Part shown: in pieces, positions 1,300 through 16,774 of the stretch
Numbering within the stretch: the first letter of the stretch is position 1
Layout: every line of letters starts with the position of its first letter
DNA from: Burkholderiales bacterium
GTDB taxonomy: Bacteria > Pseudomonadota > Gammaproteobacteria > Burkholderiales > Burkholderiaceae_C
NCBI GenBank assembly: GCA_017307855.1
Contig: JAFKGD010000016.1
Span: 1-64,000, forward strand
DNA length: 64,000 nt
Direction: 5' to 3'
Position numbers and translations under genes: made by a program
The notes under the pieces: model-generated
What the model was told of the DNA's origin: nothing
The model's input: the letters and a program-made list of their open reading frames with translations, nothing else
Databases searched by the model: none

Positions 1300-1308
1300 G
1301 GGCTGCGC

Positions 1309-2601
1309 ATGCGACTCACCGATCAAGAGAAAGCCATGGCCGACGGGCGCGACGGCCCGGGCATCCAGAAGGCCATGGACCTGCTGCTGCGCTACGGCGA
1401 AGCGCTGGGCGCCGAACGGCTGGTGGAGACGCGAAACGTCTGCTCGATGTTCACGGCCAGCATGCCGTTCCAGCGCGACTACGCCATCCGCCAGGGCAGC
1501 ATGGACGCCATGCTGTCCGAGTTCAACCTCGACAGCCAGGAAACGGTGGAGATACCGCCGTTCCGGGCCTTCACCAGCCAGCTGCAGATCGGCTTCGACA
1601 GCGCCCATGCGCCGAGCCTGGGCGTTGGCGAAGAAATGATGCGCTTCTACCGGCGCAGCGAGGTCCACATGGCCGGCCTGGGGGCGCAGCTGATGAACAC
1701 CTGCACGCCCTACCAGGTGGGCAACGTACCCACCCGCGGCGAGCACTGCGCATGGATGGAGTCGTCGGCGGTGATCTACTGCAACTCGGTGCTGGGCGCC
1801 CGCACCAACACCGAGGGGCGCGAGAGCACCAGCGCCGCCGCCCTGACGGCACGCATTCCGTACTGGGGCTATCACCTCGACGAGAACCGCTACGCCACCG
1901 ACGTCATCGAGCTCGATGTCGATGTCGATTCCACCGAGGACTGGGGCATCCTGGGCTACTACGTGGGCGAGCAGGTGCTCGAACGTGTGCCTGCACTCAC
2001 GCGACGCCACGGCACGATACGCACACCCAATCTGGCGCGCCTGAAGCACTTCGGCGCTGCCGCCTCGTCATCGGGCGGCGTGGAGATGTATCACATCGTC
2101 GGCGTCACGCCCGAGGCCCTCACGCTGGAGCAGGCACTGGGCCGGCGTGCGCCGCAGCGGACCTTCCGCTATGGCGAGGCGGAGCGCCGCGCCACCTACG
2201 AGCGCATCAATTCCACCGCCGGCAGCCATGACATCCAGTTCGTCATGCTGGGCTGCCCGCACTACACGATCGAGCAGATCTGGGAAGCCGCCATGCTGCT
2301 GCAAGGCCGCAAGGTCCATGACAACTGCGCACTGTGGATCTTCACACCGCGCACCATCAAGGCGCTGGCCGACCTGAACGGCTACACGCGCATCATTGAG
2401 GATGCGGGCGGCGTGCTGATGTCCGACACCTGCTCGGCCGTCAGCCGCATGATTCCGCCGGGGACTCGGGCCGTTGCGCTCGACTCGGCCAAGCAGGCGC
2501 ACTACCTGCCGGCGGCCGTCGGCGTGCAGGCCTGGTTCGGCAGCACGGCGCAATGCATCGATGCCGCCTGCACAGGCCAATGGCGGGGAGCCTTGCAATG
2601 A
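1309..2601 (+). CDS. Aconitase X catalytic subunit (DUF521)
   Basis: This is the large subunit of a two-gene aconitase X (430 aa). The family contains iron-sulfur dehydratases. Characterised members include cis-3-hydroxy-L-proline dehydratase and archaeal mevalonate 5-phosphate dehydratase. Family-type segments include YQVGNVPTRGEH and IYCNSVLGARTN in the N-terminal half and MSDTCSAVSRM near the C-terminus, with cysteines placed to ligate the cluster. The gene starts 9 bases after the Bug receptor and shares an ATGA overlap with the swivel-domain subunit, so the three should be co-translated. The substrate is unknown; hydroxyproline dehydration is the best guess for bacterial members, and no other hydroxyproline gene is visible here. 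Confidence 0.85.
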   Translation: MRLTDQEKAMADGRDGPGIQKAMDLLLRYGEALGAERLVETRNVCSMFTASMPFQRDYAIRQGSMDAMLSEFNLDSQETVEIPPFRAFTSQLQIGFDSAHAPSLGVGEEMMRFYRRSEVHMAGLGAQLMNTCTPYQVGNVPTRGEHCAWMESSAVIYCNSVLGARTNTEGRESTSAAALTARIPYWGYHLDENRYATDVIELDVDVDSTEDWGILGYYVGEQVLERVPALTRRHGTIRTPNLARLKHFGAAASSSGGVEMYHIVGVTPEALTLEQALGRRAPQRTFRYGEAERRATYERINSTAGSHDIQFVMLGCPHYTIEQIWEAAMLLQGRKVHDNCALWIFTPRTIKALADLNGYTRIIEDAGGVLMSDTCSAVSRMIPPGTRAVALDSAKQAHYLPAAVGVQAWFGSTAQCIDAACTGQWRGALQ

Positions 2602-3053
2602 GCGGCGCCATCGCATCGGATAACACTGCCGCACGGCAGACCCTGACGCTGCGCGGGCGCAAGGTGGTGGGGGGCGTCGCCGAAGGCGAGGCACTCGTCA
2701 CCCGCCAGCACATATCGGGCTGGGGCGGCGTCGACCCGCGCACGGGAACCATCATCGAGACCCGGCACGAGCTGCGCGGCGTGAGCTTTGCCGGCAAGGT
2801 ACTGGTGTTTCCTGGCGCCAAGGGGTCCTCGGGATGGTCCAGCACCTTCCATACGGCCCGGCTGATGGGTATGGCGCCTGCCGCCATGCTCTACAACGAA
2901 ACCACGGCCAAGGCCGCGCTGGGCGCGGTGGTGACGCACGCGCCCACCGTCACGGACTTCGACCTCGACCCGCTGCAGCACATCGAGACCGGTGACTGGG
3001 TACGCGTCGACGCCGACCGGGGCGTGGTGGAAGTGGTGCGGCGCGCTACCTAG
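2598..3053 (+). CDS. Aconitase X swivel-domain subunit (DUF126)
   Basis: This is the small subunit of the split aconitase X (151 aa). It holds the swivel domain that closes over the active site of the DUF521 partner. The segment FPGAKGSSGWSSTFH, with its GS-rich loop, is characteristic of the family. The ATG at 2598 overlaps the partner's stop codon (ATGA); an upstream in-frame ATG at 2553 lies inside the partner and is not preferred. The TAG stop at 3051-3053 lies within a CTAG palindrome that also supplies the stop of the convergent regulator gene, so the two genes have no spacer between them. Confidence 0.83.
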   Translation: MSGAIASDNTAARQTLTLRGRKVVGGVAEGEALVTRQHISGWGGVDPRTGTIIETRHELRGVSFAGKVLVFPGAKGSSGWSSTFHTARLMGMAPAAMLYNETTAKAALGAVVTHAPTVTDFDLDPLQHIETGDWVRVDADRGVVEVVRRAT

Positions 3054-3799: not shown

Positions 3800-5143
3800 T
3801 CAAAGCACCAGCAGCGCGCGGAAGTCGTTGACGTTGGTGTGCGTGGGGCCGGTGGTGAAGAGGTCGCCCAGCGGCTCGAAAAAGCCGCAGGCATCGTTGC
3901 GCGACAGGTAGGCCGGCAGCTTGAGCCCGGCCGCGTGGGCACGCGCCAGCACGTCGGGCGTGACGAAGGCGCCGGCGTTGGCCTCCACCCCGTCGATGCC
4001 GTCAGTGTCGGCGGCCAGCGCCCATACATCCGCCTGGCCTTGCAGCGCCTCGGCCAGGCCCATGCAGAACTCGCCGGCCCGCCCCCCACGGCCTCGCGGC
4101 GTTCCCTCGGGCTGCTTCTTCACGGTGACCGTGGTCTCGCCGCCCGAGAGGATCACGCAGGGCCTGGCGAACGGCTGGCCGCGCCGTGCCACCGCGCGCG
4201 CCAGCGCCGCGTGAACACGGCCGACCTCGCGCGATTCGCCCTCGATCTCGTCGGAGAGGATGTGTGCCTCGATGCCCGCCGCACGCGCCGCGGCCGCGGC
4301 CGCTTCCAGCGACTGCTGCGGCGTGGCGATCATGTGGACCGCGTGGCCGGCCAGGCGCGCGTCGCCGGGCTTGGGCGTCTCCAGCGCGCCGGACTCGAGC
4401 GCGGCGCGCACGGCCGGCGGCACGTCGATGCCGTAGCGCGCGAGGATGGCCAGCGCATCGGCGCAAGTGGTGGCATCGGCCACGGTGGGGCCGCTGGCGA
4501 TGACCGAAGGATCGTCACCCGGCACGTCGCTGATGGTGAGCGTGACCACGCGCGCCGGCGCACAGGCTGTCGCCAGCCGGCCGCCCTTGATGCGCGAGAG
4601 GTGCTTGCGCACGCAGTTCATCTGGGCGATGTCGGCACCGGATTCCAGCAGCTCGCGGTTGATGCGCTGCTTGTCGGCCAGCGTGAGGCCATCCGCCGGC
4701 AGGGTGAGCAGCGCCGACCCGCCGCCGGAGATCAGGCACAGCACCAGGTCGTCGGCCGTGAGTCCTTGCGTGAGCGCCATGATGCGCTCGGCCGCGGCCA
4801 GCCCCGCCGCATCGGGCACGGGATGGGAAGCCTCCACCACTTCGATGCGCTGCGGCAGGCCTGCCGGGCGCGGCGGCGTGTGGCCGTAGCGCGTGACGAC
4901 CAGGCCCGACAGCGGCGCATCGGCCGGCCACAGCGCCTCAACCGCCTGCGCCATCGCGCCGCCCGCCTTGCCCGCGCCCAGCACCAGGGTGCGGCCACGC
5001 GGCGGCGCTGGAAGGAACGGCGCCGTGGTGTGCAGCGGCAGGGCGCGGCGCACGGCGGCGCGGTAGAGGTGCTCGAGGAAGTCGCGCGGCTGGCGGCGCG
5101 GATCAGGGGTGGCAGCAGGCGTGGTGTCGGTGTGGGCGGTCAT
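3800..5143 (-). CDS. Glycerate 2-kinase, MOFRL family (TtuD/GckA-like)
   Basis: This is predicted to phosphorylate D-glycerate to 2-phosphoglycerate in the cytoplasm (447 aa). The N-terminal DUF4147 domain has GAGKAGGAMA with the candidate catalytic lysine at K59 and a glycine-rich LISGGGSALL loop. The C-terminal MOFRL domain contains RGGRAGEF and ADTDGIDG. Some homologues are annotated as hydroxypyruvate reductase (TtuD), but the fold is that of a kinase. It is the last gene of the minus-strand operon, 72 bases after the maleate isomerase-like gene. This suggests that the pathway encoded here ends in glycerate, for example via glyoxylate, tartronate semialdehyde or hydroxypyruvate. Confidence 0.87.
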   Translation of the reverse strand: MTAHTDTTPAATPDPRRQPRDFLEHLYRAAVRRALPLHTTAPFLPAPPRGRTLVLGAGKAGGAMAQAVEALWPADAPLSGLVVTRYGHTPPRPAGLPQRIEVVEASHPVPDAAGLAAAERIMALTQGLTADDLVLCLISGGGSALLTLPADGLTLADKQRINRELLESGADIAQMNCVRKHLSRIKGGRLATACAPARVVTLTISDVPGDDPSVIASGPTVADATTCADALAILARYGIDVPPAVRAALESGALETPKPGDARLAGHAVHMIATPQQSLEAAAAAARAAGIEAHILSDEIEGESREVGRVHAALARAVARRGQPFARPCVILSGGETTVTVKKQPEGTPRGRGGRAGEFCMGLAEALQGQADVWALAADTDGIDGVEANAGAFVTPDVLARAHAAGLKLPAYLSRNDACGFFEPLGDLFTTGPTHTNVNDFRALLVL

Positions 5144-5215
5144 GTGACAGGTGTCTCCGCCGCCGATTGTGCGGCCTGTCGCGCTGCCCCGCCGCGAACG
5201 CTCCGCCGGCTCCGC

Positions 5216-5962
5216 TCAGAAGCGTTCCATCAACTGCCCGAAGCCGGCCCGCCGGTCGTTGATACCGCACGCGCGCAGCGCATGCCAGTAGGTGGCCGTG
5301 TTGATGGCGATGACCGGCTTGCCCAGGAACAACTCGGCCGCGGCGGCCATGCGGATGGCCGAGAGGTTGGTTCCCACCTGCACGATGGCGTCCACGTCGT
5401 CGCCGTCGATCTGGCGGATGGCGTCGCGCACCATCTGGTCTGTGGTGTGTGCAATCAGCACCGGGCTGGGCCGCTGCAGGCAGACGTCGCGCACCACGGT
5501 GAATCCGCAGTCCTGATAGAAGCGGCGCACCTGCTCGTTGGCCACCTCGAAGTAGGGCGAGAGGAAGGCGATGCGTTTCGCGCCCACGGCGTTGAGCGCG
5601 GCCTCGGTGGCGAACGAGCCGCAGCTCACATCCACGCCCGCGCGCTCCTTCATGCCCTTGAGGTACTTCTCGGCGCCTGCGCGGCCGTTCCAGAAGGTGG
5701 CGGCGGACATGCCCATGACGAGGTAGTCCATCTCGCAGCTGGTCAGCGTGTCGATGGCGTCCAGCGTGGCGGCATTGATGCGTTCGACCAGCACCATGAA
5801 GCTGGCGTCGTCGCTCACCGGATCATTGGGGATCGCGATGCGGCTGTAGTGGTTGGTCACGCCCACCGGACGCAGGTCGTCGAAGTCCGGTTGTACGACC
5901 GTGTTGGTGGACGGGCCCAGCGTGCCCAGCTTCTTGCGGTATCCGAGGTGATCGACGCTCAT
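5216..5962 (-). CDS. Maleate isomerase/Asp-Glu racemase-like protein lacking both catalytic cysteines
   Basis: This protein (248 aa) belongs to the Asp/Glu racemase superfamily, closest to maleate isomerase and arylmalonate decarboxylase. Typical members have one cysteine in each half of a pseudo-symmetric active site. Here the first site reads VMGMSAATFW and the second VQVGTNLSAI, so neither has the expected Cys. The C-terminal segment KPVIAINTATYWHALRACG is family-like. I chose the ATG at 5962; it overlaps the preceding hydrolase stop by ATGA, so the two are translationally coupled. Pairing an amidase with a maleate isomerase resembles NicF/NicE of nicotinate degradation, but the missing cysteines argue for a different reaction or a non-catalytic role. 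Confidence 0.75.
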   Translation of the reverse strand: MSVDHLGYRKKLGTLGPSTNTVVQPDFDDLRPVGVTNHYSRIAIPNDPVSDDASFMVLVERINAATLDAIDTLTSCEMDYLVMGMSAATFWNGRAGAEKYLKGMKERAGVDVSCGSFATEAALNAVGAKRIAFLSPYFEVANEQVRRFYQDCGFTVVRDVCLQRPSPVLIAHTTDQMVRDAIRQIDGDDVDAIVQVGTNLSAIRMAAAAELFLGKPVIAINTATYWHALRACGINDRRAGFGQLMERF

Positions 5963-6606
5963 GGCGAAACAGTCCTTTGCAGATGATCGAGAACGGTGGC
6001 GAGGTCCAGCACGTCGGCGTATTTCTGCTGCATGTCGAACAGGTTGGCCTCGTGCGGTTCGAGGGCGCGGTCGCCCACGCATTCGCGCGGCACCACGGTG
6101 CGGAAGTTGTGCTGCATCGAATCGACCACGCTGGCGCGCACGCAGCCGCTGGTGGTGGCGCCGACGATGACGGCCGTGTCCACGCCGTGCAGGCGAAGCC
6201 AGCTGGCCAGCGGCGTGTCGAAGAAGGCCGAGGCCGAGCCCTTGCGCACGATCAGCTCGCCTGCCCGGGGTGCGAGGCAGTCGACCACCTGCGAGGCGTG
6301 CGACGTCTCGGTGAGCTTGAGTAAGCCGGGCACGCGGGTGGCGAAGATGTTGCGGTCGCTCGCGTCGTCTGCAAACACCACGCGCGAGAACGCCACTGGC
6401 AGGCCGAGCTGGCGGAACGTCGCCAGCAGCGGCACGGTGGCCTGCGCGGCCGCCTCGATGTGGGGGCCGCCGAACAGGTCGATGTCGACGAAGCTGTTGA
6501 CGAAATCCACCACCACCAGGCCGCAGCGCGTGCCGAAGCCCGACGTTCCGCCCAGCCCCTGGTGCCGGTAGACCGCGTTCTTGTCGTTCAGGTCAGGCGC
6601 CGCCAT
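5959..6606 (-). CDS. Isochorismatase-family cysteine hydrolase (maleamate/N-carbamoylsarcosine amidase-like)
   Basis: This is a cytoplasmic amidohydrolase of the isochorismatase-like fold (215 aa). The Asp-Lys-Cys triad is visible at D34 (VVVDFVNSF), K122 (VRKGSASAFF) and C155 (GATTSGCVRAS). The GATTSGC motif and the N-terminal arm resemble N-carbamoylsarcosine amidase and the maleamate amidohydrolase NicF, enzymes that release ammonia from an acyclic amide or carbamoyl acid. It overlaps the upstream lyase gene by 14 bases and the downstream isomerase-like gene by 4. Its substrate is probably a ring-opened nitrogen compound produced by the operon's monooxygenase (inference). Confidence 0.83.
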   Translation of the reverse strand: MAAPDLNDKNAVYRHQGLGGTSGFGTRCGLVVVDFVNSFVDIDLFGGPHIEAAAQATVPLLATFRQLGLPVAFSRVVFADDASDRNIFATRVPGLLKLTETSHASQVVDCLAPRAGELIVRKGSASAFFDTPLASWLRLHGVDTAVIVGATTSGCVRASVVDSMQHNFRTVVPRECVGDRALEPHEANLFDMQQKYADVLDLATVLDHLQRTVSP

Positions 6607-7522
6607 CGGTGTCGTCCTTCATGAGGCGGGCGTGGCGCGCGTCGAACTCGCCAACCCAGTCGAAGCCCATGCGTTGCGAGAAGCTGCCGAAGTCGTAGCG
6701 CGGCGTCGGCAGGGTGTGCGAGGAGCCCGTGGCCCGGATGCCTTCGTAGATCGATTCGGCTGCCTGTGCGGCTGCCAGCAGCGCAGCCACCGGCTGCAGC
6801 GCCAGGCCGACGCCCAGCTCGCGCAGCTCGTCCAATGTGAGCATCGGGCCGCGTCCGCCTTCCACGAGGTTGACCACCATTGGCAGGTCGAAGTGGCGAC
6901 ACAGCGTGCGGATTTCCTCGGCTGATTCCGTGCCTTCGACGAACAGCACGTCGGCACCGGCGCGGGCGTAGCGCTCCGCGCGGCGCATGGCCTCGTCCAG
7001 GCCCAGGCTGGTGCGCGCGTCGGTGCGTGCGATGACGAGCAGGTCGGGGTCGTTGCGTGTCTCGACTGCCACCCGAACCTTGGCCGCCATGTCGGCCGCC
7101 TCGATCACGCGGCGGCCCAGCATGTGGCCGCATTTCTTGGGCGCTTCCTGGTCTTCGAGCTGCAACGCCGCCGCTCCGGCCGCTTCGTAGCCGCGCACGG
7201 TGTGCATCACGTTGAGCAGGCCACCATAGCCGGTGTCGGCGTCGCAGATGAGCGGCGTGTCGGTGACGGTGGCGAGCTGCGCGACGCGGTTCACCATGTC
7301 GCCGTAGGTGGCGATGCCCGCATCGGGCAGCCCCAGCAGCGAGGCGACGACGCCGTAGCCTGTCATGTAGAGCGCATCGAACCCCTGGCGGTCGGCAAGG
7401 CGCGCCGACACACCGTCGTAGATGCCGGGGGCGACGACGGTGTGGCCGCGGCGCGCCAGTCGCGCGCGCAGCGCCGACCGGCGCTGGGCCGGCGTGCGGG
7501 CGCTGTGACCCTGGTGGGTCAT
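6593..7522 (-). CDS. Isocitrate lyase/PEP mutase-family enzyme
   Basis: This is a TIM-barrel enzyme of the ICL/PEPM superfamily (309 aa). The metal-binding segment DADTGYGG begins at D94, and the loop PKKCGHMLGRR carries C131, matching the KKCGH signature of C-C bond lyases such as 2-methylisocitrate lyase. A lyase, or an oxaloacetate/oxalomalate-type hydrolase, is more likely than a phosphonate mutase. The ATG at 7522 overlaps the monooxygenase stop (ATGA). A lyase here could cleave a C4-C6 acid to pyruvate or glyoxylate, which would feed the glycerate kinase at the end of the operon (inference). Confidence 0.83.
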   Translation of the reverse strand: MTHQGHSARTPAQRRSALRARLARRGHTVVAPGIYDGVSARLADRQGFDALYMTGYGVVASLLGLPDAGIATYGDMVNRVAQLATVTDTPLICDADTGYGGLLNVMHTVRGYEAAGAAALQLEDQEAPKKCGHMLGRRVIEAADMAAKVRVAVETRNDPDLLVIARTDARTSLGLDEAMRRAERYARAGADVLFVEGTESAEEIRTLCRHFDLPMVVNLVEGGRGPMLTLDELRELGVGLALQPVAALLAAAQAAESIYEGIRATGSSHTLPTPRYDFGSFSQRMGFDWVGEFDARHARLMKDDTDGGA

Positions 7523-8721
7523 GCAATGGCCTCGGCGCGTTCGAGCGCGTCGAGCATCGAGGTCTTGCGCAGGTACGCCCTGGCGCGGGCCGGGTCGTTG
7601 GCGGTGGCGCGCAGCTCGTCCTGCGTGCGCTGGCGCACGGCAGGGTCGCGCTCTTCCATTTCCTTCTTGTTGCGCGCGGTGCTGGCGTTGATGTACTCGA
7701 TCGCGATCGAGCGGCGCTGGCGCTCGTAGCGGTCGAGCACGGATTCGTCGGCGCGGCCTTCGATCACGGCCAGCAGCTTGCCGCACAGGTTCATGGCGTC
7801 GTGCACGCCGCCGTTCATGCCCATGCCGCCCAGCGGATTGTTGATGTGCGCCGCATCGCCGGCCAGGAACACGCGCCTGTCGCGGAACTTCGCGGCCACG
7901 CGCTGGTGCACCTTGTAGAGCGAGCGGTGGAAGGTGGTGTAGGGCGTGTCCTTCGGCAGCAGGTGCTGCAGCTCCTTCTCGGCGTTCGGCTCGGAGAGGC
8001 ATTCCTCGTCGGTCATCTCGAGGTTGGTGGGCACGAGGATGCGCCACAGCGAGGGCACCTTCAGCATCACGCACCACTGCTCGGGATCGGAGCAGTAGTT
8101 GACCCAGGAGAGCTGCGGCATGTGCTGCTCGAACGGGAAGTCGGTCGAGATGACGAGGAAGCGCTCGGGGTACGTATAGCCCTCGAAGGCGATGTGCAGG
8201 CTCTTGCGCACCGCGCTGCGCGCGCCGTCGGCACCGATCACGTAGTCGGCCTCGATCACCTGCGGCTCGCCACCGATGAGCACCGTGGCGCGCGCACCGG
8301 CGGGCAGGTGCTCCAGCGACTGCAGCGGCGTGCTCATGAGCAGGGTGACGTGCGGCATGGCGTCGAGCCGCGACTTGATCTGCTCGGTGAGCTTCCATTG
8401 CTCGCACTGCAGCCGGAACGGATGCTGCGTCTCCCCCGTGAGCAGTTCCATATCGAATTCGGCAATGACACCGTCGGCGCGGTCGCGCTGCTGCGTGAAG
8501 CGCGCGACGAGGCCCTGCTCGATCAGGTGCTCGGTCAGGCCGTATCGGGCCAGCATGTCCAGCGTGGGCGGATGGAAGGTGGAGGCCCGCAGGTCGTGAT
8601 TGAGGTCGGCCGCGGCCTCCACGATGGTGACGCGGACGCCCTCGCTGGCGAGGATGAGCGCGCTCACCAGGCCCACCGGGCCCGCGCCGGCGATCAATAC
8701 GTGTGTGTTCGTCGTGCTCAT
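7519..8721 (-). CDS. FAD-dependent aromatic-ring-type monooxygenase
   Basis: This is a class A flavoprotein monooxygenase (400 aa) of the p-hydroxybenzoate hydroxylase fold. The N-terminal dinucleotide motif is GAGPVG (residues 12-17), the central motif is YVIGADGARSAVRKS, and the FAD ribityl motif is VFLAGDAAH followed by NPLGGMGMNGG. The ATG at 8721 has GGGA about 8 bases upstream and is preferred over a codon 18 bases earlier. The enzyme should use NAD(P)H and O2 to hydroxylate an aromatic or heteroaromatic ring in the cytoplasm. It is first in a five-gene operon transcribed away from the GntR gene. A role like NicC (6-hydroxynicotinate 3-monooxygenase) is possible, but the substrate cannot be read from the sequence. 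Confidence 0.83.
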   Translation of the reverse strand: MSTTNTHVLIAGAGPVGLVSALILASEGVRVTIVEAAADLNHDLRASTFHPPTLDMLARYGLTEHLIEQGLVARFTQQRDRADGVIAEFDMELLTGETQHPFRLQCEQWKLTEQIKSRLDAMPHVTLLMSTPLQSLEHLPAGARATVLIGGEPQVIEADYVIGADGARSAVRKSLHIAFEGYTYPERFLVISTDFPFEQHMPQLSWVNYCSDPEQWCVMLKVPSLWRILVPTNLEMTDEECLSEPNAEKELQHLLPKDTPYTTFHRSLYKVHQRVAAKFRDRRVFLAGDAAHINNPLGGMGMNGGVHDAMNLCGKLLAVIEGRADESVLDRYERQRRSIAIEYINASTARNKKEMEERDPAVRQRTQDELRATANDPARARAYLRKTSMLDALERAEAIA

Positions 8722-8916
8722 GACATTCCCGAATTGCAATGACCCAAACTGTACACAATTGAGTTTTCCGCTGCAATTTCCCGACTCATATCAAGTCACG
8801 CCACTTGGCCTATACAGAGGGAAAACTTGATTCTCATTGCATCACAGGCTTGACATCATCCGACTGAACCAAATGGTTTTGTACACAATTCACCACCTTG
8901 ATCTACATTAAGACCC
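8722..8916. promoter_or_regulatory. Divergent control region with two TGTACACAATT boxes
   Basis: This region lies between the monooxygenase and GntR genes. An identical 11-mer, TGTACACAATT, occurs at 8750-8760 (29 bases before the monooxygenase ATG) and at 8880-8890 (about 27 bases before the GntR start). Each contains TTGT/CTGT-ACACAA, an imperfect palindrome of the size bound by GntR/FCD repressors. The DNA between them is distinctly AT-richer than the surroundings. The layout predicts one operator per promoter, so that the regulator controls both arms and itself. Confidence 0.65.
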
Positions 8917-9585
8917 ATGTCGCGCCAGAGCTCACTTGCCTACGAAACCGTCCGGAAATGGATCCTCGACGGTGAGTACGAACCCGGCCAGCGCCTCGTC
9001 GAGGAAGACGTGGCGCGGCGAGTCGGGGTGTCGCGCACCTCCCTGCGCGACTGCCTGCGCCGCCTGGCCGCCGACGGGCTGGTGCACACCGCGCCCGGCC
9101 GCGGCACCTTCGTGCTCGAGCTCGACACCGGAGAGGTCGACGAGGTGTTCCAGCTGCGTTCGATGCTCGAGGGCCACGGCGCCGCCCTGGCCGCCCAGCA
9201 CGGCGATGCCACCCACTTCGACACCCTGGCCCGTGTGGCAGAGGCCATCGACGAACTGCTCAACCGCCGCGACGTGGAAGAGTCCGCGCTCTACGCGCAG
9301 TTCCAGACCCACAACACCGCCTTCCACCTGACGCTGCTGGAAGCCAGCCGCTCCGCCCGCCTGCAATCGATGGCGCGCAGCCTGATCGAGGTGCCGCTGG
9401 TGGCACTCAAGCAGCACACCTGGCCCGGCGAGGTGTCGGTGCGGCGCTCGAACGCGCAGCACCACGAGCTGATCGAGGCGCTGCGCGCGCGCGATCCGGT
9501 GCTCGCCCGCCTCACGGTGCAGGCCCACATCCTGGGCGCCCGCCCGCGTGCCATGGTGGCCGCACGCGCGGCCGCCTCATCCTGA
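8917..9585 (+). CDS. GntR-family regulator, FCD domain
   Basis: This is a ligand-responsive repressor (222 aa). The N-terminal winged helix-turn-helix spans roughly residues 5-70, with VARRVGVSRTSLRDCLRRL as the recognition region. It is followed by an all-helical FCD ligand-binding domain whose metal-binding histidines include those in HNTAFHLTLL and QHHELIEALR. FCD regulators typically sense organic acids. The gene is divergent from the five-gene minus operon and is first in the plus operon, 28 bases ahead of the deacetylase gene. Two TGTACACAATT copies in the preceding gap are its likely operators. The ligand is unknown. Confidence 0.87.
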   Translation: MSRQSSLAYETVRKWILDGEYEPGQRLVEEDVARRVGVSRTSLRDCLRRLAADGLVHTAPGRGTFVLELDTGEVDEVFQLRSMLEGHGAALAAQHGDATHFDTLARVAEAIDELLNRRDVEESALYAQFQTHNTAFHLTLLEASRSARLQSMARSLIEVPLVALKQHTWPGEVSVRRSNAQHHELIEALRARDPVLARLTVQAHILGARPRAMVAARAAASS

Positions 9586-9613
9586 ACCTTCCCGCCCCCG
9601 ACGAAAGACCCGT

Positions 9614-10516
9614 ATGCACTACCCCTGGTCACCCATCATCAAGCGCGGCCCGCTGCGCTGGCCCGAAGGCAAGCGCCTGGCCGTGATCATCACCATGAAC
9701 TGCGAGTACTGGGACCTGACCAAGGACACCAAGGAGCCCTACTACGCCGGCGGTCCGCCGATGCTGCCCGACCACCTGCCGGGCAACGTGGCCGACTTCC
9801 CCAACTTCACCTGGCGCGAATACGGCCAGCGCGTGGGCGTGTGGCGCCTGTTCAAGCTGTTCTCGGGCATGGACGTGCCGCTGTCGCTGACGATCAACGC
9901 CAAGACCGCGCTGGAGCGGCCCGAGATCATCGAGTACGGCAACGAGCGCGGCTGGGAGTTCGTGGCGCACAACTACGAGCAGGGCGAACTGCTGACCCGC
10001 TACACGTTCGACATCGACAAGGAACGCGCCGTCATCGACGCCACCCTGGAAGCGTTCGAGAAGACCGTCGGCCGCAAGGCCCGCGGATGGCTGTCGTCGT
10101 CGCTGCGCGGCACGCCCAACACGGCCGACCTGCTGGCAGAGCGCGGCCTGCTGTACTACTGCGACCTGATGAACGACGAGCAGCCGTACCTGATCCACAC
10201 GCCCTCGGGGCCGATGGTCAACGTGCCGTACTCGATCGAGATCAACGACTTCACGTTCTTCCATCGCCGCGCCATGAACACCTGGGATGCCGCCCGCATG
10301 CTCAAGGCGCAATTCGACCAGCTCTACGAAGAGAGCGGCGAGTCGGCCATGCTGATGAACATCGGCCTGCATCCGCACGTGTCGGGCCACCCGCACCGCA
10401 TGGACTGCTACCGCGAGTTCCTCGCCCATGCGAAGCAGCGCGACGACATCTGGTGGACCACCCGCGAGGAGCTGGCCACCTGGTACATGACACAACACGA
10501 GAGACATATCCCCTGA
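9614..10516 (+). CDS. Polysaccharide deacetylase-family (PuuE-like) hydrolase
   Basis: This is a NodB-fold hydrolase (300 aa) of the group that includes the allantoinase PuuE, which is encoded at 24293. The canonical Asp-Asp metal motif is replaced by MNCEYWD, as in amide-cleaving members, and FVAHNYEQGE supplies the histidine region. The tail HPHVSGHPHRMDCYREFL has the conserved histidine and arginine. I chose the ATG at 9614, where the family-like sequence YPWSPIIKRGPLRWP starts. The family contains cyclic amide hydrolases, so hydrolysis of a lactam or ring amide is more likely here than sugar deacetylation. It is second in the plus operon, after gntR. Confidence 0.78.
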   Translation: MHYPWSPIIKRGPLRWPEGKRLAVIITMNCEYWDLTKDTKEPYYAGGPPMLPDHLPGNVADFPNFTWREYGQRVGVWRLFKLFSGMDVPLSLTINAKTALERPEIIEYGNERGWEFVAHNYEQGELLTRYTFDIDKERAVIDATLEAFEKTVGRKARGWLSSSLRGTPNTADLLAERGLLYYCDLMNDEQPYLIHTPSGPMVNVPYSIEINDFTFFHRRAMNTWDAARMLKAQFDQLYEESGESAMLMNIGLHPHVSGHPHRMDCYREFLAHAKQRDDIWWTTREELATWYMTQHERHIP

Positions 10517-10577
10517 ATCCGGCGGCCGCGGCGATGTGCCGTGCGCTCGCTCCCCCAACCGAACAGGAGTCTCATTC

Positions 10578-11549
10578 ATGTCCACGAGAAGACAGGCCCT
10601 CGCGGCCCTGGCCGCACTGGCCTCGCCGCTGGTCCCCCTTGCCGTCAAGGCGCAGGAGCAACGCCCCTTGCGACTGGTGATTCCCTTCGCGGCTGGCGGC
10701 AGCTCCGACGCCATGGCGCGCCTGCTGGCCACGCGCCTGTCGCCCGAGCTGGGCGGTCGCACCGTGATCGTCGAGCCCACGCCGGGGGGCAGCGGGCTGC
10801 TGGCCTCGCGCAAGCTGCTCAACGCGCCGGCCGACGGCACGATGCTGCTGAACATCTCGCCCACCACAACCATCATCCTGCCCAAGACGACCAAGCTCGA
10901 TTTCGATCCGCTGACGGATTTCGTGCCGGTGTCCAACATGGGCTCCAACCCGCTGGTGCTGGGTGTGCACAAATCGGTCCCGGCGAACAACCTGAAGGAA
11001 TTCATCGCCTGGGCCAAGTCGCAGCCGCCCAAGTCGATCAACTTCGCATCGGGCGGCACGGGCACGTCCACCCACCTGGTGGCCGAGCTGTTCTTCAAGC
11101 GTGCGGGCCTGCAACTCACCCATGTGCCCTACAAGGGCGGCGCGCCGGCGCTGCAGGACCTGCTGGCCGGCCACGTATCGGCCTACTTCGGCAACCCGGC
11201 CGAATTCCTCGCGCAGCTGGGCGGCGGCAACATCCGCGTGCTGGCCACCTCGGGCGACAAGCGCCTGTCGGAATTGCCCGACATGCCCACGCTGGCCGAA
11301 TCCATCCCCGGCCTGTCGCTCGTCACCTGGAACGGCCTGGCCTTCCGCAAGGGCACGCCAGCCGACGAGGTCGCCCGCGTCTCGGCCGCGATCCAGCGTG
11401 TGTCCAGGCAGCCTGAGTACATCGCCGGCATGGCGAAGATCGGCATCGCCGTGATCGGCGACACGCCCGAGCACTTCGGCGCCACCATCGCGCGCGACCG
11501 CGTGCTGTGGAACGAGGCCATCGCCGTGGCCGACCTCAAGCAGGAATGA
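10578..11549 (+). CDS. Bug-family periplasmic receptor
   Basis: This is the second Bug/TctC-type solute-binding protein in the window (323 aa). The signal peptide STRRQALAALAALASPLV has an RR pair and a cleavage region at VKAQ, so Tat or Sec export are both possible. Family hallmarks are VIPFAAGGSSDAMAR near the mature N-terminus and THVPYKGGAPALQDLLAGHV in the centre. The ATG at 10578 has AGGAG 9 bases upstream, better than the codon at 10536. No TctAB membrane genes accompany it. A strong hairpin with a T-run follows the gene, so the first three genes of the plus arm may form their own transcript. Confidence 0.84.
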   Translation: MSTRRQALAALAALASPLVPLAVKAQEQRPLRLVIPFAAGGSSDAMARLLATRLSPELGGRTVIVEPTPGGSGLLASRKLLNAPADGTMLLNISPTTTIILPKTTKLDFDPLTDFVPVSNMGSNPLVLGVHKSVPANNLKEFIAWAKSQPPKSINFASGGTGTSTHLVAELFFKRAGLQLTHVPYKGGAPALQDLLAGHVSAYFGNPAEFLAQLGGGNIRVLATSGDKRLSELPDMPTLAESIPGLSLVTWNGLAFRKGTPADEVARVSAAIQRVSRQPEYIAGMAKIGIAVIGDTPEHFGATIARDRVLWNEAIAVADLKQE

Positions 11550-11562
11550 CCCTGCCCGGTTC

Positions 11563-11603
11563 GGCGCGCCCGGCACGCCCGGGCGCGCCGCACCGCCTTT
11601 TTT
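11563..11603 (+). terminator. Rho-independent terminator-like hairpin
   Basis: A perfect 11-bp stem, GGCGCGCCCGG (11563-11573) pairing with CCGGGCGCGCC (11579-11589), closes a 5-base loop. Six T residues follow at 11598-11603, 8 bases after the stem. The distance to the T-run is a little long for a textbook terminator. It sits between the Bug gene and the dioxygenase gene and may partly separate two transcripts. Confidence 0.65.
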
Positions 11604-11627
11604 CTTCCCCGAGCAGGAGCGTCCCGC

Positions 11628-12722
11628 ATGAGCACCGCCACGCAAGAAATTCCGGCCATCACGGGCTACACCCGCGGCCCGCTGGCCGACGGCCGCGCCG
11701 ACTGGCGGGCGCGCGATGTGCGTGATATGGCCGGCTGGTCGTACACCTTCAGCGCGCAGGAACGCGACACGCTCTCGGCCGCGCTCACACGGGCGCTGGC
11801 GGCCGGTATCGACATCGACGCCGTCACCCCGAATGACTTTCCGCTGCCGGGCTTCGCGCCGCTCATCGATCGCATGCTGGCCGAGATCGAGCACGGCCGC
11901 GGCCTGTTTTTGCTGCGTGGCTTTCCGGTGGACCGGCACACCAAGGCCGAACTGCGCTACATGTACGTGGGCCTCACGCGCCATCTGGGCACGCTGATGT
12001 CGCAGAGCAGCGGCGGCGATCACATCGGCGACGTGCGCAACTTCAACGTCGACGTCAACAGCTCCGCCGGCCGCGCCTACACCAGCAAGCAGAAGCTCAC
12101 CTTCCATTCGGACCAGTGCGACATCGTGAGCCTGATGGTGCTGCGCGTGGCGAAGGAAGGCGGCCTGTCCAAGCTGGCGAGCGCGCTGGCCATCCGCAAC
12201 GAGATCGCTCGCACGCGCCCCGACCTGCTGGACGTGCTGCATCAGCCCTTCCCCTGGAGCTGGCAGGAACAGCAGCCGCCGGGCGATCGCCCCTGGTACC
12301 TGCAGCCCATCTACACCGAGCAGGACGGGCGCTTTTCCAGCTACTACATCCGTACGCACATCAACTCGTCGCAGCGCTACGACGACGCACCGCGCCTCGC
12401 GCCGCGGCAGATCGAGGCGATGGACCTGGTCGACCAGCTGGCCAACGACGACGAGTTCAACTTCGCCACGATGTTCCAGCCCGGCGACGTGCAGTTCCTC
12501 AACAACCACGTCATCCTGCATTCGCGCACCGCGTTCGAGGACTTCGACGAGGACGACCGCCGCCGCCACCTGCTGCGCATCTGGCTGTCGGTGCCGGGCA
12601 GCCGGCCGCTGCATGCGGCGATGCACACGCTGTTCCAGGACCAGCGCGCGGGCGCCGTGCGCGGCGGCTTCCCCTCGCGCACCGGCCGGCGCGTCTACGA
12701 GACCACGGTCTCGGCAAGCTGA
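11628..12722 (+). CDS. TauD/TfdA-family Fe(II)/2-oxoglutarate dioxygenase
   Basis: This is a non-haem iron dioxygenase (364 aa). The facial triad is visible: H160 and D162 in FHSDQCD, and a distal histidine in LNNHVILHSR (H298 is favoured). A basic segment, DDRRRHLLRIW, follows and would bind 2-oxoglutarate. The family couples 2-oxoglutarate decarboxylation to hydroxylation, for example of taurine, 2,4-D or, in fungal XanA, xanthine. The ATG follows GAGCAGGAG. The gene begins a run of six tightly spaced genes (to 16774), and its product probably carries out an early oxidation in their pathway. The substrate is unknown. Confidence 0.82.
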   Translation: MSTATQEIPAITGYTRGPLADGRADWRARDVRDMAGWSYTFSAQERDTLSAALTRALAAGIDIDAVTPNDFPLPGFAPLIDRMLAEIEHGRGLFLLRGFPVDRHTKAELRYMYVGLTRHLGTLMSQSSGGDHIGDVRNFNVDVNSSAGRAYTSKQKLTFHSDQCDIVSLMVLRVAKEGGLSKLASALAIRNEIARTRPDLLDVLHQPFPWSWQEQQPPGDRPWYLQPIYTEQDGRFSSYYIRTHINSSQRYDDAPRLAPRQIEAMDLVDQLANDDEFNFATMFQPGDVQFLNNHVILHSRTAFEDFDEDDRRRHLLRIWLSVPGSRPLHAAMHTLFQDQRAGAVRGGFPSRTGRRVYETTVSAS

Positions 12723-12749
12723 AGACATCCCCTTGAAGAAGGTCACCCC

Positions 12750-13178
12750 ATGAAAGTCGTCCGCGTGGCCCACGTCGCCGTGGCTACCGATGCGCTCGCC
12801 ACGCTCAAGAGCGTGTTCGGCGACGTGCTGCAACTGCCGCTCATGAAGGAAGCGCGCTTCCCGTCGGGCACCGAGATGGCGATGTTCCGCCTCGGCAACC
12901 TCGACATGGAGGTGGTGCAGAACCACGCGCCCGACAGCCTGCCCGGCCGTTTCGTGCGCGAGAAGGGCGGTGGGGGCTACTACCACCTGTGCCTGGAGGT
13001 GGACGACCTGCCCGGCGCCGTGGCCGAACTCTCGGCCCGCGGCGTGCACGCGCTGGCCGGTGCGCCCACCAGGGGCGCGCACGGCGAGCCCGTGGTCTTC
13101 CTCGATCCGGCCTGCACGGGCGGCCTGATGTTCGAGCTGACCCAGGTGTACGAGCACGACGCCCCCGCAACGCATTGA
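12750..13178 (+). CDS. VOC-family (glyoxalase/epimerase-like) protein
   Basis: This is a small vicinal-oxygen-chelate protein (142 aa) with two beta-alpha-beta-beta-beta repeats. Candidate metal ligands are H8 (VRVAHVAVAT), E54 (DMEVVQN), the histidine of YYHLCLEV and the glutamate near FELTQVYE. The arrangement resembles methylmalonyl-CoA epimerase and 4-hydroxyphenylpyruvate-type VOC proteins. An epimerase, isomerase or ring-cleaving dioxygenase activity on an oxidised intermediate is possible. It starts 27 bases after the dioxygenase gene and is followed 12 bases later by the SDR gene. Confidence 0.75.
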   Translation: MKVVRVAHVAVATDALATLKSVFGDVLQLPLMKEARFPSGTEMAMFRLGNLDMEVVQNHAPDSLPGRFVREKGGGGYYHLCLEVDDLPGAVAELSARGVHALAGAPTRGAHGEPVVFLDPACTGGLMFELTQVYEHDAPATH

Positions 13179-13190
13179 CGGAGAAGTTCC

Positions 13191-13955
13191 TTGCACGCTG
13201 AATCCCCCACGGTCCTGCTCATCGGCGCGGCGCACGGCATCGGCCGCGCCGCTGCACTGCAACTGGCCGCGCGCGGCGCGAAACTGGCCGCCTGCGACAT
13301 CGATGTGGCCGGACTCGAATCGCTGAAGGCCGAGCTGCCGGCCGGCGCCCAGGTGCTGCTGCAGCAGGCCGACGTCACCTCGGCCGAATCGCTGGCCGGC
13401 TTCGTCGCCGCCACCGAGGCCCGCTTCGGGCCGATCGACTCGGCCATCTGCAACGCGGGCGGCATGATTTCGCTGGTGCACGAGGGCCAGGTGGCCAGCA
13501 ACGTGCGGCGCTTCGCCGACACGCCGCCGGCCGACTGGAAGAAGATCGTCGACCTCAACCTCTACGGCGTGCTCAACATGACGCACGCGGTGCTGCCCGG
13601 CATGGCCGCGCGCGGGCGTGGCCGCATGGTCTATGTGGCCTCGGTGTCGGGCCTGGTCGGCAGCCCCGGCCTGGCCGTGTACTCGGCCGCCAAGGGCGGT
13701 GTGATCGCGTTCGCCAAGTCGATGGCGCGCGAACTCGGCGAGAACGGCATCTCGGTCAACTGCGTGGCACCCGGCGGCATCGCCACGCGTGCCTTCAGCA
13801 CCGGCTCGGCCTCGGTGAGCAAGCGGCTCGAACGCGTGGCGCTCGGGCGACTGGGCCAGCCCGAGGAAGTGGCCAACGTCATCACCTACATGGCGCTGGA
13901 CGCGCCGCCCTACCTGACGGGAGAGACGGTGTCGGTGTCGGGAGGCCCGCCGTGA
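13191..13955 (+). CDS. Short-chain dehydrogenase/reductase
   Basis: This is a classical SDR (254 aa). The nucleotide-binding motif is GAAHGIG (residues 12-18), NAGG is at 88-91, and the active site is S151/S153 with Y164-x3-K168 (YSAAK). The aspartate after the second strand (ACDID) favours NAD(H). The start is a TTG at 13191 with GGAG 8 bases upstream; no closer ATG fits. It overlaps the next dehydrogenase gene by GTGA. It probably oxidises an alcohol or cis-diol intermediate of the plus-arm pathway. Confidence 0.85.
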   Translation: MHAESPTVLLIGAAHGIGRAAALQLAARGAKLAACDIDVAGLESLKAELPAGAQVLLQQADVTSAESLAGFVAATEARFGPIDSAICNAGGMISLVHEGQVASNVRRFADTPPADWKKIVDLNLYGVLNMTHAVLPGMAARGRGRMVYVASVSGLVGSPGLAVYSAAKGGVIAFAKSMARELGENGISVNCVAPGGIATRAFSTGSASVSKRLERVALGRLGQPEEVANVITYMALDAPPYLTGETVSVSGGPP

Positions 13956-14944
13956 GCACTACCCCTGAAGCCGCGGCGCCCCTGCGCGTGGCGGCGGCGT
14001 CCCCCTCGTTCTGCGAGCACCCCGTGCTGTGCGACGAACTGCGCGCGCACTTTCCGGAAGCCACCTTCAACACATCGCTCAAGCGCCTCGAAGGCGCGTC
14101 GCTGGTGGACTTCCTGCGCGGACACGACGTGGCCATCGTCGCGCTGGAGCATGTCACCGAAGAGGTGGTGGCGCAGTTGCCGGAGCTCAGGATCGTCTCC
14201 AAGATGGGCACGGGCGTGGACATGATCGACGCCAGGGCCCTGGCTTCGCGCGGCATCCGCTTCGGCTGGAAAGCCGGCGCCAACGCGCTGTCCATCGCCG
14301 AGCTGGTGATCGCCTACTCGCTGGTGGCGCTGCGCGGCATGGGCTCGTCCAACCTCGCGCTGCGCAGCGGCGGCGATACCAGCCGCCGCATGGGCCGGCT
14401 GCTCACGGGCCGCGTGGTGGGCCTGCACGGTTGCGGCCACATCGCGCAGGCCGTGGTGCGGCTGCTCGCACCCTTCGGCTGCACGATCCTGGCGCACGAC
14501 ATCGTCGATCGCAGCGACTTCTACGCGCAACACGGCATCGAGTCCGTGGGCTTCGACGAACTGCTGGCGCGCTCGGAAGTGCTGTCGATCCACGTGCCGC
14601 TGACCGATTCCACGCACGGCCTCTACGATGCGCCCGTGCTCGACCGGCTGCGGCCCGACTGCGTGCTGATCAACACCGCGCGCGGCGAGATCGTGCGAGA
14701 GGCGGCGCTGGCCGAACGCCTGAAGGACGGCCGCATCGCCGCCGCCTGCGCCGACGTGTTCGAGTCCGAGCCCGCCTTCGACTCGCCGCTGATCGCCCTG
14801 CCCAACTTCTTCGGCACGCCGCACATCGGCGGCAGCGCGGCCGAGGCCCGCCTGGCCATGGGGCGCATCGCCATCGCCGGCATCACCGACAACTTCATCC
14901 CCGTGCCGGGCGTCCACCCGTTCGGCCCGCAGGCCACGTCATGA
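13952..14944 (+). CDS. D-isomer-specific 2-hydroxyacid dehydrogenase
   Basis: This is an NAD(P)-dependent D-2-hydroxyacid dehydrogenase of the phosphoglycerate dehydrogenase type (330 aa). The Rossmann motif is GLHGCGHIA (residues 157-165). The catalytic residues R244 (NTARGE), E273 (FESEP) and H291 (TPHIGGS) are all present. It starts with GTG, overlapping the SDR stop, and ends in an ATGA overlap with the next gene, so it is translationally coupled on both sides. A hydroxypyruvate or glyoxylate reductase role would yield the glycerate used by the kinase at 3800, which would link the two divergent operons (inference). Confidence 0.86.
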   Translation: MSTTPEAAAPLRVAAASPSFCEHPVLCDELRAHFPEATFNTSLKRLEGASLVDFLRGHDVAIVALEHVTEEVVAQLPELRIVSKMGTGVDMIDARALASRGIRFGWKAGANALSIAELVIAYSLVALRGMGSSNLALRSGGDTSRRMGRLLTGRVVGLHGCGHIAQAVVRLLAPFGCTILAHDIVDRSDFYAQHGIESVGFDELLARSEVLSIHVPLTDSTHGLYDAPVLDRLRPDCVLINTARGEIVREAALAERLKDGRIAAACADVFESEPAFDSPLIALPNFFGTPHIGGSAAEARLAMGRIAIAGITDNFIPVPGVHPFGPQATS

Positions 14945-15681
14945 CCTCACCCGCCTACTTCGGCGACCGGGCCCGCCTGGGCCTGGTCGTGCCGCCCAAC
15001 AACACCGTCTGCGAGGCCGAGTGGGCCAGCGCGATGCCGCCCGGCGTGAGCCTGCATGCGGCACGCTTCCGGCTCAACCCGCTGGCGAAGACCGCCGAAG
15101 AACTCGACACACTGCGCACCGGGCTGCTGGACGCCAGCGCGATGCTGGCCGAAGCCGAGATGAGCGCGCTGGCCTTCGCCTGCACCGCGCCGTCGGCCGT
15201 GAGCCCGCGCCACGCGATGGAGACGGCGATGACAGCGGCCAGCACCCTCCCTTCAGCCACGGCCGCGGCCGCCGTGGTGGACGCGCTGGTGGCACTGGGC
15301 GCGAAGAGCGTGGCGCTGTTCTCGCCGTTCTCGGCCGCCGTCACGGCGCACGAGGCCGCATTCATGGAGCAGGAAGGCATCCGGGTTCTGGCCCAGCACT
15401 CGCTGGGACACGGCACCTATGCACCGGGCCGCCGGCTGGAGATCCACCGCATCGCGCCGGCCGAGGTGCAGGCCGCGGTCATGGCCATCGACCACGCAGG
15501 CGCCGATGCACTGGTGCTCTCGGGCACCAACCTGGTCACCTTCCCGATGATCGACGCGCTCGAGCAGCAGGCCGGCAAGCCCGTGGTCAGCAGCAACCAG
15601 GCGCTGTTCTGGTCGGCGCTGCGCAAGGCCGGCGTGCACGACGCGTTGCCGCTGGGCCGGCTGTTCCGCCTCGCGGCCTGA
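14941..15681 (+). CDS. Maleate isomerase/Asp-Glu racemase-family protein with one catalytic cysteine
   Basis: This is a second maleate-isomerase-like protein (246 aa), related to the one at 5216 in the divergent operon. The first active-site cysteine is retained at C81 (LAFACTAPSA), and PPNNT near residue 20 is the expected carboxylate-binding loop. The second cysteine is replaced by glycine in VLSGTNLVTF, where most family members have SCTNL-like sequence. A single-cysteine enzyme could be a decarboxylase or an altered isomerase rather than a racemase. The C-terminal segment PVVSSNQALFWSALRKAG is typical. The start overlaps the upstream dehydrogenase by ATGA. Confidence 0.78.
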   Translation: MTSPAYFGDRARLGLVVPPNNTVCEAEWASAMPPGVSLHAARFRLNPLAKTAEELDTLRTGLLDASAMLAEAEMSALAFACTAPSAVSPRHAMETAMTAASTLPSATAAAAVVDALVALGAKSVALFSPFSAAVTAHEAAFMEQEGIRVLAQHSLGHGTYAPGRRLEIHRIAPAEVQAAVMAIDHAGADALVLSGTNLVTFPMIDALEQQAGKPVVSSNQALFWSALRKAGVHDALPLGRLFRLAA

Positions 15682-15727
15682 TCCGCGCGCTTCCACTGTT
15701 CACTTCCCACCCTCAGGACTTCCGACG

Positions 15728-16774
15728 ATGAAACTCCAACGCATCCTCTCGCTCGTGGTCGGCACGCTGACCGCCGCGCTGATGGCCGCCGGCCCGGCCG
15801 CCGCACAGGCGCCAACCAAAGTCAAATTCACGCTCGACTGGCGTTTCGAAGCGCCAGCGGCGCCCTACTTCCTCGCGCAGGGCAAGGGCTACTTCGACCA
15901 GGAAAAGATCTCCATCGACATCGACGCGGGCGGCGGCTCGGGCCAGACGGTCACGCGCGTGGCCTCGGGCACCTATGACATGGGCTTCGCCGACCTGGCG
16001 ACCGTGATGGAGTTCCAGGCCAACAACCCGACGGCGCCGGCCAAGCCCGTGGGCGTGATGATGATCTACAACAATGCGCCCATGGCTCTGTACGCCATGA
16101 AGAAGTCGGGCATTGCGCAGCCAGCCGACCTCAAGGGCAAGAAGCTCGGCGGCCCGCAGTTCGACGCCGTGCGCCGCGCCTTCCCCATCTTCGCCAAGGC
16201 CAACGGCATCGATGCCTCGGCCTTCACCTGGACCACGATGGACCCGGCCCTGCGCGAGACCATGCTGGTGCGCGGTGACGTCGACGTGATCTCGGGCTTC
16301 ACCTTCTACACGCCGCAAAGCCTGGGCGCGCGCGGCGCCAAGCCGGGCGACTACAACACCATCCGCTATGCCGACAACGGCGTTCGCCTGTACGGCAACG
16401 CGGTCATCGTGAACGAGGCCTTCGCGAAGAAAAACCCCGAAGTGGTCAAGGGCGTGCTGCGAGCCATCGCGAGGGGTTATCGCGACACGGTGAAGAGCCC
16501 CGAGGAAGCCGTGGCCTATCTCAAGAAGCGCGAGCCGCTGATCAACGAAGAGGTCGAACTCTCGCGCACGCGCGCGCTGGTCGAGATGGTGCTGATGGCC
16601 CCCGATTCGGTGAACGAAGGCTTCGGCCGCGTCTCGCCGCCGCGCGTGTCGCTGATGGCCGCGCAGGTGAGCGATGCCTTCAATACGAAGACGCGCGTGA
16701 ACGCCGCGACAGTGTTCGACGCGTCGTATCTGCCGGCGGCTGCCGAGCTCGACTTCCTGCGCAAGCCGCGCTGA
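15728..16774 (+). CDS. ABC transporter substrate-binding protein (NMT1/SsuA-like), paralogue 1
   Basis: This is a periplasmic binding protein of the NMT1/THI5-like, nitrate/sulfonate/taurine-type ABC group (348 aa). It has a Sec signal peptide ending in GPAAAQA, and the mature part begins KFTLDWRFEAPAAPYFLAQ. It shares long, nearly identical segments with the protein at 28561: both have VTRVASGTYD, and their C-termini carry SLMA-(A/S)-QVSDAF. This gene is last in the plus operon and has no ATPase or permease of its own. It may use the membrane components encoded at 29704-31326, 13 kb away (inference). The ligand is probably an aromatic or heterocyclic compound. Confidence 0.85.
   Translation: MKLQRILSLVVGTLTAALMAAGPAAAQAPTKVKFTLDWRFEAPAAPYFLAQGKGYFDQEKISIDIDAGGGSGQTVTRVASGTYDMGFADLATVMEFQANNPTAPAKPVGVMMIYNNAPMALYAMKKSGIAQPADLKGKKLGGPQFDAVRRAFPIFAKANGIDASAFTWTTMDPALRETMLVRGDVDVISGFTFYTPQSLGARGAKPGDYNTIRYADNGVRLYGNAVIVNEAFAKKNPEVVKGVLRAIARGYRDTVKSPEEAVAYLKKREPLINEEVELSRTRALVEMVLMAPDSVNEGFGRVSPPRVSLMAAQVSDAFNTKTRVNAATVFDASYLPAAAELDFLRKPR

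Follow-up and report, generated by a model that had tools for sequence, protein, structure and literature searches.

The fermentation of nicotinate uses a dimethylmaleate hydratase and a 2,3-dimethylmalate lyase, and in vitamin B6 breakdown the ring is cleaved oxygenolytically by MHPCO. PMC6122326 gives the order of the nicotine pathway as HspB, Hpo, Nfo, Ami and Iso, and according to PMC9304392, in the hxn nicotinate pathway of Aspergillus nidulans the PuuE-related cyclic imide hydrolase HxnM is followed by the amidase HxnN. We compared these systems with a divergent gene set at positions 3800-16774 of a 64,000-nucleotide stretch of DNA (the window) from a Burkholderiales bacterium. The window opens an 82.9 kb contig (JAFKGD010000016.1), taking up its first 64 kb, in a genome of 5.0 Mb and 17 contigs, and the genus is represented in our searches by this one genome. 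The set comprises 13 enzyme or receptor genes and one GntR/FCD regulator gene, in two tight runs. An initial annotation had placed all 14 genes in two divergent arms and named their families, which is borne out by Pfam and NCBIfam searches and a codon-based gene call, and we agree with it that they match no pathway known to us. No description of the set appeared among the matches listed in searches of open-licence PMC papers; its enzymes, each of a known kind, form a new combination. We see a recurring core of a flavin monooxygenase (FMO), an ICL-type lyase, a NicF-like amidase (IsoC), a protein of the maleate-isomerase fold (MI1) and the GntR gene, joined in some lineages by a PuuE-like gene. 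Compared with the set proposed earlier, this unit is smaller and more sharply delimited, and it spans bacterial classes. We tentatively read the locus, at somewhat under an even chance, as a GntR/FCD-controlled catabolic regulon that takes a small nitrogen ring, probably one with carboxyl or alkyl substituents, through an imide and an amic acid to an alkylmalate. Judged by its gene families, the cluster looks like an undescribed way for water and soil bacteria to open a nitrogen ring, release its ammonia and split the remainder into small acids.

On the minus strand, the core consists of the FAD monooxygenase (7519-8721), the ICL/PEPM-superfamily lyase (ICL, 6593-7522), IsoC of the isochorismatase type (5959-6606) and MI1 of the arylmalonate decarboxylase (AMDase)/maleate-isomerase fold (5216-5962), and the three junctions between them overlap by 4, 14 and 4 bp. 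The GntR/FCD gene (8917-9585, by Pfam) and the PuuE-like gene (9614-10516), both core in part of the lineages, open the plus-strand run. A scan of the genome collection with the monooxygenase gave 153 relatives, the best 80 of which were kept as loci. Partners were counted if the match covered at least 40% of the query and lay at most 10 kb from the monooxygenase, at identity thresholds of 45% for ICL, 38% for IsoC, MI1 and the second such protein MI2, 48% for PuuE, 33% for GntR, 40% for the glycerate kinase (GlyK), SDR and D-2-hydroxyacid dehydrogenase (HADH), and 35% for TauD, VOC, the NMT1 receptor and a nearby aconitase X (AcnX). The amidase was found in 61 of the 80 loci, MI1 in 58, the lyase in 46, GntR in 35, the PuuE-like protein in 17, MI2 in seven and GlyK in three. 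Lyase, amidase and MI1 occurred jointly in 39/80 loci; among the 47 loci flanked by 8 kb or more on each side, 22 had all three. Because many contigs are short, such linkage counts are lowered. TauD, VOC, SDR, HADH, the NMT1 receptor and AcnX each scored 0/80 under these rules (weaker SDR and HADH matches exist and were left out of the counts), and the full set of 13 was not found as a conserved unit among the 80 loci. The neighbourhood search upholds co-conservation in other genomes for the core, but not for the whole set.

Records with the core are of Burkholderiales type or come from Rhodobacterales and Novosphingobium, and Roseomonas has part of it. In several Comamonadaceae-type loci it is accompanied by an SDR, a YtnP-like MBL hydrolase, a branched-chain-type ABC transporter, another SDR and a second isochorismatase, and Rhodobacterales loci add MI2, SDR and MBL families with ABC or TRAP transport. 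A Novosphingobium capsulatum plasmid carries the order SDR-isochorismatase-PuuE-HTH-ICL-FMO-AMDase, and a Thioclava plasmid FMO-AMDase-GntR-racemase-MBL-isochorismatase, with ICL and PuuE-like genes not found in that stretch. Within about 16 kb of an Allorhizobium plasmid lie ABC genes, FMO, MI1, PuuE, GntR, SDR, MBL, MI2, ICL, IsoC and SDR, and Roseomonas marmotae has PuuE, ABC, SDR and MBL genes, with FMO absent from the 25 kb examined. Among 399 genomes of the window's family, the PuuE-like protein was found in two (E 1e-60) and MI2 in one (strict cut-off), which marks an accessory trait; the rarity of the PuuE-like protein also argues that the core linkage is not inherited background.

The starts of the two runs are separated by 195 bp. 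This interval holds two plus-strand copies of TGTACACAATT, at 8750-8760 on the FMO side and 8880-8890 on the GntR side, and an exact match occurs nowhere else in the genome. With one mismatch the pattern occurs in six places, against two matches for a reversed-pattern control, and 0/100 window shuffles reached two matches. The unique pair and the shuffles together point to divergent control beyond chance. TGTACA was present in all 22 intergenic regions with divergent neighbouring GntR and FMO genes (window included; the loci are mutually related), and at least two sites matching TTGTGTACAA with up to two mismatches were found in 20 of them. Single-base shuffles gave a mean of 4.8/22 regions with at least one site, a control that compares single sites and not pairs. 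From the site pair and its recurrence across the 22 loci we infer regulator binding, such that this GntR protein probably governs both arms through a putative palindromic operator. GntR control of the divergent promoter, proposed in the initial annotation, is in this way supported, and the two-site candidate makes the inducer directly testable.

The families, motif states and linkage suggest a sequence of steps, of which we infer each reaction as well as the order. The monooxygenase, of PnpA/HspB type, would oxidise the ring to a cyclic imide or lactam; the PuuE-like enzyme would open this to a maleamate-type amic acid; and the NicF-like amidase would free ammonia, leaving a maleate-type diacid. 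The substrate of MI1 would be either this diacid or what the monooxygenase produces. Next, a hydroxyl group would be added beside a carboxylate; in some relatives a LeuCD-type hydratase would do this, in the window possibly a TauD-family dioxygenase. The lyase would then cleave the alkylmalate-type acid to a 2-oxoacid and a short acid. The earlier suggestion that the likely role is to break down a nitrogen compound is supported. The nearest solved relatives of the monooxygenase are PnpA and HspB, at approximately 30% identity, both by sequence and by predicted structure (pLDDT 91.7), a comparison that confirmed the fold and not the substrate; its earlier likening to NicC, a decarboxylating monooxygenase, appears weak. 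An unlikely alternative is oxygenolytic cleavage of a hydroxypyridine ring by the monooxygenase itself, in the manner of MHPCO, with the amidase hydrolysing the resulting enamide. This would suit the amidase as the most frequent partner (61/80), and the SDR and YtnP-like MBL hydrolase genes beside GntR in many relatives recall pyridoxal dehydrogenase and pyridoxolactonase. However, PnpA and HspB are the nearest solved structures, no MHPCO entry appears among 60 of 70 matches listed, there is no MBL gene among the 14 genes, and the PuuE-like protein and lyase would be left unexplained.

IsoC is identical to 3ot4 at 104 of 191 aligned residues; 3ot4/3uao, its nearest solved entry, we take to be the Bordetella maleamate amidohydrolase NicF. 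The D, K and C positions that presumably form its catalytic triad are at least 97% conserved in 57 family members, so at the level of sequence the proposed NicF resemblance is strong. The fold of the MI1 model (pLDDT 92.0) is nearest to maleate cis-trans isomerase 2xed (TM 0.86, 20% identity), and this comparison again confirmed fold and not substrate. Known enzymes of this fold work with one or two catalytic cysteines, maleate isomerases with two. MI1 lacks both in 53/53 members: G197 occupies the position of arylmalonate decarboxylase Cys188, and M85 the position matching residue 74, a match that lies one residue past the printed MI1-arylmalonate decarboxylase alignment. With both positions replaced, one- or two-cysteine chemistry should be out of reach, and 'maleate isomerase-like' is for MI1 a statement of fold; the label stands in that sense but not for the catalytic pair, which is also where the suggested likeness to NicE fails. 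MI2 (14941-15681, plus strand; EutA/AMDase-like, below cut-offs) keeps C81 and has G195 at the second position in the window, and both cysteines are present in 7/7 Rhodobacterales relatives.

These results bear on a Nic/HspB-type scheme in which the monooxygenase makes a 2,5-dihydroxypyridine and an unlinked dioxygenase and deformylase convert this to the maleamate, followed by the amidase and isomerase steps known from P. putida S16. The locus shares with the lower nicotinate/nicotine pathway a PnpA/HspB-type monooxygenase, a NicF-like amidase nearest 3ot4 and a maleate-isomerase fold nearest 2xed. It differs in that MI1 lacks its cysteines and that imidase-like and lyase genes are added, for which this route has no role. 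It also differs in the absence of a NicX-type gene, as the initial annotation had noted: PF02073, to which NicX/Hpo presumably belongs, had 0 matches in the genome, a search for which no NicX-bearing genome served as control. No NicD/Nfo deformylase is present among the 14 genes, the rest of the genome not having been searched. We rejected the Nic pathway as such for want of a NicX-type gene and for the cysteine-less MI1, and consider the wider scheme quite unlikely. Riboflavin/lumichrome catabolism was rejected as well. PMC12746152 describes for it a route by P450, thiamin-dependent decarboxylase, xanthine oxidase and Rieske enzymes, a different enzyme set.

The PuuE-like protein scores 143.8 bits against the PuuE allantoinase model TIGR03212 (cut-off 424.6), in the same protein family yet far below the canonical allantoinase PuuE encoded at approximately 24293-25246 in the window (507.8 bits). 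By family kinship, this allantoinase paralogue is a candidate cyclic amidase or imidase, and its pairing with an amidase resembles the hxn pathway. Going by PMC9304392, both systems have PuuE-related imide opening followed by amide hydrolysis, with flavin monooxygenases upstream, but hxn is fungal, uses another amidase family, lacks a lyase and ends in 2-hydroxyglutarate. Allantoin catabolism was rejected for the locus, as canonical PuuE is encoded separately. A purine-catabolism annex, in which the PuuE-like, racemase-like and glycerate kinase genes would serve allantoin and glyoxylate, is most improbable. Genes for 8-oxoguanine deaminase and XdhC follow the set, and further on come the canonical allantoinase gene, xanthine-dehydrogenase-like genes and, by reading, a PuuD-like gene; a glycerate kinase also suits glyoxylate use, but the separate allantoinase speaks against it, and no purine gene was named near the core on two plasmids (Novosphingobium capsulatum and Thioclava). 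The purine genes belong to a large purine/nucleoside catabolism island at 16800-59591, in which PuuD, deaminases, ABC systems and xanthine dehydrogenase were identified by reading sequence starts. The NMT1/SsuA-type receptor at 15728-16774 (plus strand), beside which no transporter gene was called, is similar by eye to another at 28561-29583, which does adjoin ATPase- and permease-like genes; the first perhaps belongs with the purine island.

The preferred imide-to-alkylmalate route ends at the lyase, which carries PKKCGH; exact KKCGH is present in 41 of 47 family members and N-x-x-E-G-G-R in 32 of 47. Its N-L-V-E-G-G(-R) resembles the N-x-x-E-G-G of petal death protein and not the N-I-T-E-F-G of the 2-methylisocitrate lyase PrpB, a state that is absent here; against the PrpB model TIGR02317 it scores 261.9 bits (cut-off 354.4). 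Petal death protein (1zlp), which we take from its substrates to be a 2-alkylmalate-type lyase, shares the motif states PKKCGHM, N-x-x-E-G-G and S/T-G-Y, but the likeness is at superfamily level only. By this resemblance, the lyase appears to be of alkylmalate type, and the tail of the pathway would look like the cleavage of an alkylmalate, not like a path to fumarate or glycerate. Lyases of this type need a 2-hydroxyacid beside a second carboxylate. In 4/80 loci (L037, L038, L041 and L042), homologues of LeuC and LeuD are encoded downstream of MI1, near FMO and ICL. L153 has them near PuuE-like, ICL, FMO and MI1 genes, L122 has PuuE-like, ICL and LeuCD together, and a Novosphingobium RL4 plasmid holds PuuE-like, ICL, FMO, MI1 and LeuCD in about 20 kb, with no amidase match in the stretch. 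These six numbered loci share with nicotinate fermentation a LeuCD-type hydratase and an ICL-family lyase; the route proposed here differs in starting with a monooxygenase, and no dedicated hydratase was found in the window's genome. At 319-3053 in the window, a Bug receptor and a split aconitase X (large subunit assigned by Pfam, small by position) lie beside a Crp-type regulator; AcnX (1309-3053) as the hydratase is unsupported, with 0/80 core loci at threshold.

For the window, an accessory TauD-family dioxygenase (11628-12722, nearest solved entries 7n7v and FrbJ) may install the hydroxyl. Among 27 TauD homologues outside the window, seven have an ICL-family gene within approximately 1.5 kb. 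In 8 of 11 wide TauD loci, partly selected for a nearby lyase, the lyase is adjacent or one Bug gene away; L127 is an exception, with three genes between. Genomes of the window's family hold a recurring group of TauD, Bug and ICL-family genes (L118-L121, L123-L125 and L127), with a c3 gene in seven of the eight (LysR by Pfam in L118, the others by homology). Seven of their lyases read N-M-V/I-E-G-G-Q-T-P, and that of L121 N-I-V-E-S-G-R-T-P. In another unexplained set, L116 and L117, a TauD homologue stands beside MmgE/PrpD, AtuA and DUF4387 genes (in L117 by homology).

The TauD gene sits in a plus-strand run that reads GntR-PuuE-Bug-TauD-VOC-SDR-HADH-MI2-NMT1, with a Bug/TctC solute receptor at 10578-11549 (by Pfam), accessory genes for a methylmalonyl-CoA-epimerase-like VOC protein (12750-13178; 84 bits, below the cut-off of 114.95), an SDR dehydrogenase (13191-13955) and the D-2-hydroxyacid dehydrogenase (13952-14944). 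From the PuuE-like gene on, the junctions are gaps of 61, 78, 27 and 12 bp, two 4 bp overlaps and a gap of 46 bp. In the other run, the glycerate 2-kinase gene (3800-5143, minus strand; DUF4147 and MOFRL by Pfam) lies 72 bp beyond MI1. Within each run the genes are thus closely spaced, the extremes being an overlap of 14 bp and a gap of 78 bp, which makes two transcription units plausible. A doubtful but weightier rival is that two unrelated modules, the core from FMO to PuuE-like and a separate TauD-VOC-SDR-HADH-MI2-receptor set, are adjacent by chance. It would account for the 0/80 scores of TauD, VOC, SDR, HADH and NMT1, and for TauD homologues elsewhere, whose neighbours are Bug and ICL genes in some cases and PrpD/AtuA genes in others. 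Yet the tight right-arm spacing suggests one transcript, MI2 homologues occur near the core in 7/80 loci, and the partners of TauD elsewhere are themselves ICL-type lyases. We propose that the distal right-arm genes and the peripheral glycerate kinase are lineage-specific additions to the core. The three core loci with GlyK (L047, L052 and L068, read from open reading frames) are all titled Rhodospirillales, and the GlyK neighbours in L068, the only ones annotated, look unrelated. Given these counts, the earlier suggestion of one pathway of all 13 genes, possibly ending in glycerate, is not supported: both a single 13-gene unit and glycerate as end product were rejected.

Several observations weigh against the proposed imide-to-alkylmalate route. 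The PuuE-like gene was not found in 63/80 loci, including 37 of the 47 that have long flanks; there it is either unlinked or dispensable for the core, and L011, L019 and L020 carry Rieske- or extradiol-type genes where it was not found. At approximately 30% identity to PnpA and HspB, ipso hydroxylation by the monooxygenase is only a lead, and the chemistry of MI1 is unexplained. TauD as installer of the hydroxyl is guilt by association, and the genome holds no LeuC-size paralogue beyond one, its other aconitase-family frames being longer. L122 is without a match to FMO, MI1 or the amidase, L153 shows no amidase, and Roseomonas loci are without the lyase in their flanks. Some monooxygenase relatives, among them those in L056 and L062, are without any partner in the flanks, one on a Bradyrhizobium plasmid has other neighbours, and the paralogue in the window's own genome sits in a different cluster.

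A naturally occurring nitrogen ring is the probable substrate of the core, and the open-licence PMC papers searched showed no account of what bacteria do with it. A more specific version, which we rate very unlikely, is an undescribed aerobic route for substituted pyrroles and maleimides (such as fragments of bile pigments, heme and chlorophyll). The flavin monooxygenase would give a maleimide, acted on in turn by the imidase, the maleamate amidase and the cysteine-free enzyme of the maleate-isomerase fold, and hydration or hydroxylation would precede a lyase step yielding pyruvate and a short acid. If true, the route would supply a catabolic link for fragments of tetrapyrroles in bacteria of lakes and the sea. 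Defined targets for study are MI1, as a cysteine-free branch of the maleate isomerase/arylmalonate decarboxylase fold, the divergent PuuE-like protein and the alkylmalate-type lyase.

Other gene sets were seen beside monooxygenase relatives. In L011, L019, L020 and L015, reductase and HpaD-like extradiol dioxygenase genes are divergent from the core monooxygenase, and a Rieske-type gene was read in L011 and L020. These may provide an alternative ring-cleaving start; the only NCBIfam match behind the Rieske/extradiol labels is the L015 homologue (below cut-off), the others being assigned by homology or reading. The monooxygenase paralogue of the window's genome (41-43%; L081, G000:C2:237000-256900) lies with an amidohydrolase, a DUF4286 protein, GntR, Bug and an aldehyde dehydrogenase, and a Mariluticola plasmid (L152) holds a similar set with a succinate-semialdehyde dehydrogenase. 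In Pigmentiphaga kullae (L044), a CoxSML-like molybdenum-hydroxylase operon, read from sequence starts, is separated by a few genes, one of them pyrE-like, from FMO-MI1-Bug-IsoC, and L045 and L046 are alike in gene pattern only.

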